From: Asanoa iriomotensis
GTDB lineage: Bacteria; Actinomycetota; Actinomycetes; Mycobacteriales; Micromonosporaceae
DNA: 64,000 nt
NCBI RefSeq assembly: GCF_016862515.1
Contig: NZ_BONC01000005.1
Location: forward strand, 124,001-188,000
Direction: 5' to 3'
Shown here: positions 27,127 through 29,056 of the stretch, one piece after another
How the letters are laid out: each line of letters opens with the position of its first letter
Numbering within the stretch: position 1 is the first letter of the stretch
Notes under the pieces: model-generated
The model's database searches: none
The model's input: only the letters and a program-made list of their open reading frames with translations
Told to the model about the DNA's origin: nothing
Program-made: the position numbers and the translations under genes

Positions 27127-27438
27127 TCAGTGGGGAGTGGGCACCGGCCCCAGGGTGGCCAACTGGTCGCGCACCGCGTCGACGGAGGGGCAGCCCCGGC
27201 GCGGTGCGCCCCACCCGTGCGGTCCGGCGTACGCGGTGAACCGGCAGTGCGGCTCGTCCACGTACCCCCAGGCCATGAAGACCTCGACACCGGCGTAGCG
27301 GTAGACGCCGACGGACTCGATCCGCGACCCGGCCGTGCGGCGATGGAAGGTCGCGTGCAGGCCGGGCAGCACCGTGCCGTCGAGGTCCGCGTCGGTCACC
27401 TCGCGGTGCACCGTGAATTGCGACAGGTCGGGCAGCAC
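27127..27438 (-). CDS. Hypothetical protein downstream of the sortase
   Basis: A 103-aa frame starting at a GTG 15 bases after the sortase stop, with only a weak AGGT ribosome site, so translation would depend on coupling. Its composition is that of a folded soluble protein (aromatic and charged residues, VGVYRYAGVEVFMAWGYVDEPHCRF). No signal peptide or known motif is visible. Codon use resembles the neighbours, which supports coding, but the family is unknown. Confidence 0.5.
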   Translation of the reverse strand: MLPDLSQFTVHREVTDADLDGTVLPGLHATFHRRTAGSRIESVGVYRYAGVEVFMAWGYVDEPHCRFTAYAGPHGWGAPRRGCPSVDAVRDQLATLGPVPTPH

Positions 27439-27453
27439 GACCTGATCAACGAG

Positions 27454-28179
27454 CTACCACTCCGTCGGGCCGTGGCCCTTGGACGTCCGCGGCAGCTCGG
27501 GCGTGCGGGCGTCGACCGCGTAGACCACCACGTTGTCGCGGTAGGACCGCCTGCTCCGGTCGAACTCGCCGCCGCAGGTGATCAGCCGCAGCTCGGAGCC
27601 GGGCGTCGCGCCGTACACCCGGGTCGTGGGGAACTTGTCCTTCGGGTAGTGGCCGGTGGCGACCACGCGGAACGGCAGCCAGGTGTCGCCGCGGCGGACC
27701 TCGACGGTGTCGCCGGGGCGCAGCTCGCGGAGGCGGTAGAAGACCGCCGGGCCGCGGTAGGAGTCGACGTGGCCCGCGATCACCGCCGGGCCGGGCTCGC
27801 CGGGCAGCGTGCCCTGCTCGTACCAGCCGGCCTTGGCGTAGTCGACCGGTGCCTCCAGCTCGCCCTTGCTGTCGAGGTCGAGACCGACCAGTGAGGACCG
27901 GATCGCGACCCGGGGTATCCGCACCTCGGACGGCGGCGGCAGCGCGGCGAGCGGGTCGACCGCGGCGGCCTCGACCGGTCGCGCGCAGTCGGAGCCGCAG
28001 CCGACGTGCCAGCGGGCCGTTGGCGGCGGCGCGCTCGCGTCGCCGGCCGCGAGGCCGAGGGTCGTGCCGGCGGCGGCGCAGAGGGTGAGCGCGGTCAGCG
28101 TCAGGCCGAGGGCCGGCACGGGCCAGCCCCCGCGGTGCCGTCTGACCGCGGGGGAAGGCCGGGCGTCGCTCGCGCTCAC
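27454..28179 (-). CDS. Class F sortase
   Basis: A 241-aa membrane-anchored transpeptidase that would cleave sorting signals on exported proteins. An N-terminal transmembrane helix (about 19-42) precedes the sortase beta barrel. The catalytic residues are visible: H137 in AGHVDS, C202 in LITCGG and an Arg near 210-214 before DNVVVYAV. The Cys context (L-I-T-C) and lack of a C-terminal helix fit class F. The GTG at 28179 is four bases after the stop of the DUF4397 protein, its likely substrate, and the pair forms one operon. Confidence 0.85.
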   Translation of the reverse strand: MSASDARPSPAVRRHRGGWPVPALGLTLTALTLCAAAGTTLGLAAGDASAPPPTARWHVGCGSDCARPVEAAAVDPLAALPPPSEVRIPRVAIRSSLVGLDLDSKGELEAPVDYAKAGWYEQGTLPGEPGPAVIAGHVDSYRGPAVFYRLRELRPGDTVEVRRGDTWLPFRVVATGHYPKDKFPTTRVYGATPGSELRLITCGGEFDRSRRSYRDNVVVYAVDARTPELPRTSKGHGPTEW

Positions 28180-28183
28180 CGAC

Positions 28184-29056
28184 TTACCAGGTGCGTCGGG
28201 CCCTGCGCCGCAGCCCGAGGGCTCCCACGCCGACGACGCCGGCCAGCGCGACCAGGCCGAGTCCGGCGGCGAGGGCCATCGTGCCGGCGCCGCTGGTGCC
28301 GCCCGCTCCGGTGTCGACGCCGCCCTGCGGGGTGATCTCACCGGCCTTGGCGTCGACCTTGAGGTCGGTGGTCAGGCCGTCCTTGCCGTCGAGCACGAGC
28401 AGCGAGTAGGTCGTGCCGCCGGCGAGGTCGCAGGTCGCCTTCGCGGGCGTCCCGCCGGCCTCGGGCGTGAGGTCGAGCGTCCAGTTGCCGGGCTTCACGC
28501 CGCGGTAGTCGCTGGTCGTGGCGAACTTGAGCCCGTCGCCGACCTCCTGGCCACCGGTCGTCCTGATGTCGAGGACCGGCGACTTGACCGAGGCCTGCAG
28601 CACCCGGATCTTCGCCTGGTCGGCCGGCGGCGCGGTGATGTCGTCGTCGATCACCGACAGGCCGAGCTCGGCGAACCGGCCGGTGCCGGCGACGGTGTGC
28701 GCGCTGCCCTCGGTGACCGTGACGCTCTCGGTGAGCACCGGCTTGGACTTCGGGTCGGCGCCGACCTTGCGCATCGAGACCGCGTAGGTGCCGGGCGGCA
28801 CCGACAGGTAGTCGGACATGACGCCGTACGGCACGGCGTCGAACTTGAGGCCCTTCATCTTGCCGCCGAGATCGTCGACGTAGACGTCGACCGGCGGGGT
28901 GTCGGGGGAGAGGTGGGCCAGGCGCACGTAGCCGACGCCGGCCTCCGCGGACGCGGGGGCGGCGATCGCGGCGGACAGGCCGGCACCGATGAGGACGGCA
29001 CCGGCGGCGGCAACCAACCGGTGCAGCGCGCGGGGGGAGGGACGCGCAGGGATCAT
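28184..29056 (-). CDS. DUF4397 surface protein with a sortase-type tail
   Basis: A 290-aa exported protein. Residues 1-37 are a signal peptide (cleavage after ASA). DUF4397-type repeats follow, in which GVGYVRLAHLSPDTPPVDVYVD and IRVLQASVKSPVLDI mark the repeat starts. The tail has the three parts of a cell-wall sorting signal: PQGGVDTGAGG (about 243-253), a hydrophobic helix, and RRRARR at the C-terminus. The motif is not LPxTG. The ATG at 29056 follows GGAGGAAG. Cotranscription with the class F sortase suggests the two are enzyme and substrate; the surface role is unknown. Confidence 0.82.
   Translation of the reverse strand: MIPARPSPRALHRLVAAAGAVLIGAGLSAAIAAPASAEAGVGYVRLAHLSPDTPPVDVYVDDLGGKMKGLKFDAVPYGVMSDYLSVPPGTYAVSMRKVGADPKSKPVLTESVTVTEGSAHTVAGTGRFAELGLSVIDDDITAPPADQAKIRVLQASVKSPVLDIRTTGGQEVGDGLKFATTSDYRGVKPGNWTLDLTPEAGGTPAKATCDLAGGTTYSLLVLDGKDGLTTDLKVDAKAGEITPQGGVDTGAGGTSGAGTMALAAGLGLVALAGVVGVGALGLRRRARRTW

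Follow-up and report, generated by a model that had tools for sequence, protein, structure and literature searches.

Class F sortases and related systems

In the excerpts available of papers up to 2026, the role of class F sortases is termed unknown or inconclusive (PMC13251363; PMC13257024; PMC6998099). One of the closest described systems is that of Actinoplanes missouriensis, which has four class F sortases, two of them encoded beside secreted proteins with a C-terminal helix and a basic end; as far as the excerpt goes, the authors suspected both proteins as substrates and set them aside, there being no pentapeptide, and a strain lacking all four class F genes showed no visible phenotype (PMC13251363, 2026). 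This null phenotype counts against the importance of such pairs, which may matter only under other conditions. Here, a motif for class F partners is stated and compared across 174 class F sortases.

Another enzyme termed class F is SrtF of Propionibacterium (Cutibacterium) acnes (PMC7451113; PMC7913060, both in excerpt), the class F enzyme that has been assayed, which is reported to use LPQTGE (PMC7451113). A class F structure, 5uus, is given in the excerpt of PMC8361268. Among class E enzymes, SrtE1 of Streptomyces coelicolor is likewise actinobacterial and likewise has a non-LPxTG signal, LAxTG, and its excerpted description differs from our enzyme in that SrtE1 retains its Arg (R329) and a signal with Leu at P4 (PMC5148588), whereas an Asn stands at the place of the Arg in the sortase studied here.

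Among curated models, NCBIfam names NF058571 "GVDTG sorting domain-containing protein" (GVDTG_CTERM), so its curators had already seen a GVDTG signal. Searches of the open-licence PMC literature on class F sortases, DUF4397, GVDTG and DUF4331 turned up no statement of the motif.

A DUF4397 protein and a class F sortase in Asanoa iriomotensis

The window, by which we mean the whole stretch of 64,000 nucleotides that was analysed, comes from a host assembly of 8.57 Mb in 187 contigs, and carries a DUF4397 surface protein and a class F sortase as neighbours (Table 1). The DUF4397 gene starts with ATG at 29056 and ends with TAA at 28186-28184, and its product matches PF14344 with 127.6 bits (cut-off 30.6). 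The tail of this protein, ITPQGGVDTGAGGTSGAGTMALAAGLGLVALAGVVGVGALGLRRRARRTW, runs from PQGGVDTGAGG into a hydrophobic helix and then into RRRARR. The sortase gene, with a GTG start codon, has an N-terminal hydrophobic segment encoded ahead of its catalytic domain, and its product is placed in class F by NF033748 with 175.8 bits against a curated cut-off of 166, and matches PF04203 with 78.8 bits. An earlier, sequence-only reading of the window had given the coordinates, the tail and the four-base gap, all of which agree with the translations and the gap itself, and it had called the adjoining gene a class F sortase, as NF033748 now does. Its statement that LPxTG is absent also holds, in that none is seen by eye in the DUF4397 protein and neither TIGR01167 nor Gram_pos_anchor matches it in NCBIfam and Pfam at E up to 1.

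Table 1. Features of the gene pair, in window positions.
Feature	Position	Strand	Basis or remark
DUF4397 surface protein, proposed substrate, 290 aa	28184..29056	minus	translation; Pfam PF14344
N-terminal signal peptide, residues 1-37, end APASA	28946..29056	minus	by eye on translation
DUF4397 domain, copy 1	28562..28933	minus	profile match
DUF4397 domain, copy 2, partial	28352..28615	minus	profile match
GVDTG sorting domain NF058571	28202..28333	minus	32.9 bits vs cut-off 29 (protein scan); 37.2 bits (genome search)
Motif P243-Q-G-G-V-D-T-G-A-G-G253	28298..28330	minus	motif search; proposed cut T249/G250
Hydrophobic helix and RRRARR, residues ~259-288	28193..28282	minus	by eye
Four-base gap between the two genes	28180..28183	minus	
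Class F sortase, 241 aa	27454..28179	minus	NF033748, PF04203
Catalytic His137	27769..27771	minus	kept in 161/161 Asn-type rows
Lys180, proposed stand-in for catalytic Arg	27640..27642	minus	row counts, Asn-type vs Arg-type
Catalytic Cys202	27574..27576	minus	kept in 161/161 Asn-type rows
Asn216 at the catalytic-Arg place	27532..27534	minus	alignment

The C-terminal match to NF058571 covers all 44 model positions (1-44) at an E value of 6e-8, so that the window tail itself does not differ from the curated GVDTG signal, and no other NCBIfam model matches it at E up to 1. The motif that the sequence-only reading had presented as a non-LPxTG signal is therefore real and, as described below, conserved, but it is not new to databases. 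In addition, GVDTG is one variant only: the same gene pair occurs in three other Asanoa species, found as relatives of the DUF4397 protein, where the tails have GGVETG in place of the GGVDTG of the window protein and where H137, C202 and N216 of the sortase are identical.

The nearby genes are ordinary (glutathione peroxidase, a family 18 chitinase with CBM2, pyrroline-5-carboxylate reductase and phosphofructokinase). A minus-strand ORF of 103 aa (27127-27438) begins 15 bases past the sortase stop and is a possible third gene of the operon; it has no Pfam match at E up to 0.01. No solved relative of DUF4397 was found at E up to 1 in a single-sequence search.

A predicted substrate-sortase pair

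The layout of the tail, the adjacency of the genes, the recurrence of the motif next to class F sortases on proteins that are otherwise unalike, and the His, Cys, Asn and Lys that the enzymes conserve all point to a dedicated substrate-sortase pair, and we judge it likely that the DUF4397 protein and the class F sortase form one, with a cut predicted within the tail. The signal peptide of the DUF4397 protein would direct its export, and the C-terminal helix and arginines would keep it in the membrane, where the sortase would recognise P-Q-G-G-V-D-T-G-A-G-G just before the helix. By analogy with LPxT|G, the cut most likely falls between T249 and G250, and it would proceed through a thioester at Cys202, after which the protein would be handed to a cell-wall acceptor, presumably lipid II. 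Among the sortases of the cell, this one alone may act on the DUF4397 protein.

In another reading, the sortase does cut the tail, but what results is set free or linked to a different protein instead of to the cell wall, the two genes being a maturation or polymerisation module. One partner in the wider comparison (L218:15-1079) has a motif-like stretch three times, as VHTGGGALAA twice in the chain and as MHTGGGGLAS at the tail, as might suit such a module; such repeats were noticed in this partner only. The tail is laid out as wall-anchored proteins usually have it, and NCBIfam and Pfam show no pilin domain in the DUF4397 protein, so that we consider release or polymerisation unlikely.

Seven class F sortases in one genome

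Ten sortases were found in the Asanoa genome with PF04203, and NF033748 assigns seven of them to class F, each with a score above its cut-off. With NF058571, five tails pass the cut-off and two more fall short of it at E under 0.001; each of the seven stands directly upstream of one of the seven class F sortases, and the weaker matches in the genome begin at model position 10 or later and mainly cover the helix. Besides PQGGVDTGAGG of the window, the partner motifs in this genome are PTGGVDTGDGS, PSRGPATGFGG, PSHGPHTGGGG, PKGWVDGGVAG and PNGGVPGGAGG, the last of which occurs twice. The two proteins with PNGGVPGGAGG belong to near-copy pairs of a class F sortase and a tail protein (L003 on contig C141 and L009 on contig C16), both at contig ends, and the C16 partner matches DUF4331 with 273 bits. 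Two class E-like sortases of the genome that were aligned keep the Arg and miss a five-residue stretch before it. Three anchors with LPVTG, as read by eye, were found in the genome with TIGR01167.

Adjacency in the family sample

In the family sample of 31 genomes, the Asanoa genome included, there are 87 sortases matching NF033748 at E up to 1e-10 (in 26 of the genomes), 41 tails matching NF058571 at E up to 0.001, of which 16 are over cut-off, and 25 DUF4397 proteins by PF14344, with the domains of one protein counted once. Adjacency was taken from coordinates as a distance of at most 2.5 kb from a class F sortase on a shared strand. All 16 tails over cut-off are adjacent in this sense, as are all 15 weaker tails whose match begins at model position 5 or earlier, against 1 of the 10 weaker matches that begin later in the model. 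DUF4397 proteins adjacent to class F sortases, which the sequence-only reading had proposed to collect, make up 23 of the 25, one of the two exceptions being a sub-cut-off match, so that DUF4397 comes close to being a class F partner domain in this sample. In one genome (G404, locus L141), a DUF4397 protein beside a class F sortase has a tail whose motif has decayed, with RRVDTMDAT where GGVDTG would stand.

These counts bear on the idea that adjacency is a side effect and that the tail is processed by some other enzyme (an exosortase- or rhombosortase-like protease, for instance, or a class E sortase). The signal is indeed glycine-rich, and the tail of one paralogue (L008) comes near to MYXO-CTERM, with 18.1 bits against a cut-off of 20. 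The window tail, however, matches only NF058571 in NCBIfam at E up to 1, and all 31 full motif matches of the family sample have a class F sortase beside them, which leaves processing by another enzyme highly improbable.

A sorting signal wider than GVDTG

Class F matches in a phylum sample of 149 genomes number 94 (E up to 1e-15) and come from 31 genomes. Seven belong to the Asanoa genome, and the remaining 87 were joined to the 87 of the family to give 174 sortases, whose flanks were read for 1.5 kb on both sides as far as the contigs reached. Directly upstream of the sortase, the flanks hold a hydrophobic-plus-basic tail in 75/87 family and 54/87 phylum cases, as compared with 13 of the 281 gene-like ORFs present in 400 kb of random stretches from one relative genome, which furnished the small set of 13 control tails. 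Unsupervised motif search on the 129 upstream tails gave P-x-G-G-[VP]-x-[T/A/S/G]-G-x-G-[G/S], with frequencies of P 0.69, x, G 0.57, G 0.71, V/P 0.53/0.28 and x in the N-terminal half, followed by T/A/S/G 0.52/0.26/0.09/0.09, G 0.94, x, G 0.86 and G/S 0.73/0.10 in the C-terminal half. As compared with LPxTG, the Gly at P1' is retained; P1 is small, P3 is mostly Val or Pro and P4 mostly Gly, and a Gly-rich stretch follows. Across 135 motif-tail loci, the residue at P1 is most often T (72 loci), followed by A (38), S (13) and G (12).

While 125/129 tails outscore all 13 control tails, this figure comes from a motif learned on the same tails that it scores, and the held-out figures are fairer: a family-trained motif places 49/54 phylum tails above all controls, and when body groups are held out, 119/122 tails beat all controls. 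In addition, 119/129 tails lie above the 99th percentile of shuffled windows. Chance or composition as the source of the motif was considered and is ruled against by the shuffled windows and the held-out tests. The sequence-only reading had made its claim depend on the tails of homologues being conserved, and they are: the motif pattern fits 73/75 family and 47/54 phylum upstream tails vs 1/13 controls, a pattern that was composed after the tails had been inspected, for which reason the held-out tests remain the fairer measure. The 122 motif-bearing partners fall into 29 body groups by single-linkage BLAST of ORFs untrimmed to start codons, the two largest with 45 and 35 members, and among ten chosen partners three have a Pfam match over cut-off (DUF4397, DUF4331 and CHRD).

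The tail could also be a plain membrane anchor, with the sortase serving other proteins that carry LPxTG or LAxTG. This would agree with the LPQTGE reported, in excerpt, for the P. acnes class F enzyme (PMC7451113) and with the three LPVTG tails in the Asanoa genome. A plain anchor, however, needs no conserved motif, yet the motif occurs on 29 body groups; the three LPVTG proteins are on contigs without any sortase match; and the pattern test finds LPxTG in 1/75 family and 0/54 phylum upstream tails and LAxTG in 4/75 and 1/54, counts on which LPxTG and LAxTG were rejected as the partner signal. The class F structure of the excerpted PMC8361268, 5uus, is moreover a weak sequence match to this group, at only 20.3 bits. 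The plain-anchor reading is therefore improbable in our view.

NF058571 only partly covers this wider motif. Among the ten chosen partners, it passes three in the protein scan, leaves five below cut-off (one of which, L009, passes in the genome search) and misses two, and the wider motif is therefore only partly in the databases used.

A His-Cys-Asn active site with a conserved lysine

The catalytic Arg expected after the Cys is missing from the window sortase, where Asn216 takes its place. A change of Arg to Asn in actinobacterial class F sortases has been reported before (PMC6998099, in excerpt), so that Asn216 does not exclude class F. Among the 174 class F rows, 161 are His-Cys-Asn, nine are His-Cys-Arg and four are other, the His and Cys being present in 9/9 Arg-type rows as well, and the two types align without gaps around the active site. 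Of the four others, L068 has Ser and retains a motif-bearing partner, L266 is a partial match, and L158 and L159 are degenerate copies.

Residue 180 is Lys in 151/161 and basic in 156/161 Asn-type rows, as against Lys in 0/9 and Arg in 3/9 Arg-type rows, where the loop differs and the residue is hard to align; P184 is present in 155/161 Asn-type vs 2/9 Arg-type rows. As far as we have seen, Lys180 is the new part of the active-site picture. From the sequence it appears to lie in the beta6/beta7 loop, which in class E touches the sorting signal (PMC5148588, in excerpt). We propose that Lys180 may stand in for the Arg, and that the glycine-rich signal may be read by the rebuilt loop. The AlphaFold models, built from four-row alignments, had mean pLDDT values of 48 and 40, too poor to place Lys180, and solved relatives are weak by sequence, with 35.2 bits for 4d70 and 20.3 bits for 5uus. 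The latter we take to be the P. acnes class F enzyme. Because these solved relatives match weakly, the LPQTGE-using class F enzyme may be a poor guide to the Asn-type group.

A motif tail lies within 1.5 kb of 0/9 Arg-type sortases vs 132/161 Asn-type sortases. Since the Arg type is one clade from three genomes and a single change on the tree, a link between the Arg/Asn state and the presence of the motif is suggestive only. Columns ~206-212, between Cys and Asn, vary with Pro at P3 (Fisher tests down to ~1e-15); the tree gives only two independent pairs on supported branches, and no claim is made for specificity residues there.

Pairing across 174 sortases

Motif tails were counted at a score of 3 within 1.5 kb, a threshold that may admit chance matches (one on the other strand, at L186, looks like one) and that misses tails which look right by eye (L204, L225, L256). 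Counted in this way, 126 of the 132 Asn-type sortases with a motif tail have it directly upstream on the same strand, made up of all 74 such cases among 84 in the family and 52 of 58 such cases among 77 in the phylum sample. The 29/161 Asn-type sortases without a motif tail within 1.5 kb, some of which are at contig ends, count against dedicated pairing; the ten in the family include three at contig ends (L058, L128, L144) and the decayed motif of L141. One Asn-type clade (L132, L135, L221, L228, L232, L237 and perhaps L186) lacks a convincing motif tail within 1.5 kb and may have its substrates elsewhere. At three loci of genus code g8 (L211, L215 and L217, in G023, G107 and G128), a motif-tail protein is on the strand opposite the class F sortase and a second motif tail lies further upstream on the same strand, perhaps two partners each.

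In the reverse test, which started from 29 GVDTG-tail loci as the best match per genome (L051 being just under cut-off), a class F sortase was found in 25/29, and contig ends truncate two of the four loci without one. The remaining two, with the tails PEGAVATGAGG (L033) and PARGPDTGAGG (L036), have no class F sortase within 1.5 kb and are not contig-end cases; they are probably unlinked substrates, and count against strict pairing.

The motif also tracks the phylogeny of the sortases. On a FastTree tree of 173 sortases, with 200 shuffles as the null, the P1 residue changes 26 times (shuffled mean 54.6, minimum 45) and the P3 class 8 times (shuffled mean 32.7, minimum 28). Likeness to the motif of the nearest sortase in another genome is 0.69 (n=134), as compared with 0.46 among class F pairs of the same genome (n=118) and 0.43 at random. 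Such tracking is expected from dedicated pairs, and also from joint inheritance of neighbours.

A possible separate actinobacterial type

From these comparisons a broader reading can be put forward, tentatively and with a slight lean towards doubt. Most actinobacterial class F sortases would be a separate His-Cys-Asn type with a substitute Lys in the beta6/beta7 loop, having left LPxTG for P-x-G-G-[VP]-x-[T/A/S/G]-G-x-G-[G/S] with any of four small residues at P1; each enzyme would have one adjoining substrate, and the Asanoa genome would run seven insulated one-to-one lines beside class E enzymes for LPxTG/LAxTG proteins. While the window pair itself is of a known sort, the interest lies in the wider motif, the pairing and the Lys/Asn site. 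The sequence-only reading saw the operon as an enzyme-substrate pair useful for defining class F recognition, a use that the comparison extends from one pair to ~130 candidate pairs. With 29 partner groups, seven enzyme-peptide pairs in one genome and the P1 variants, class F specificity becomes directly testable, and sortases with signals other than LPxTG for protein ligation could result.

Degenerate class F copies also occur: in genome G417, L158 and L159 have lost active-site residues, and an intact class F sortase with its partner lies ~1 to 2 kb away from them.
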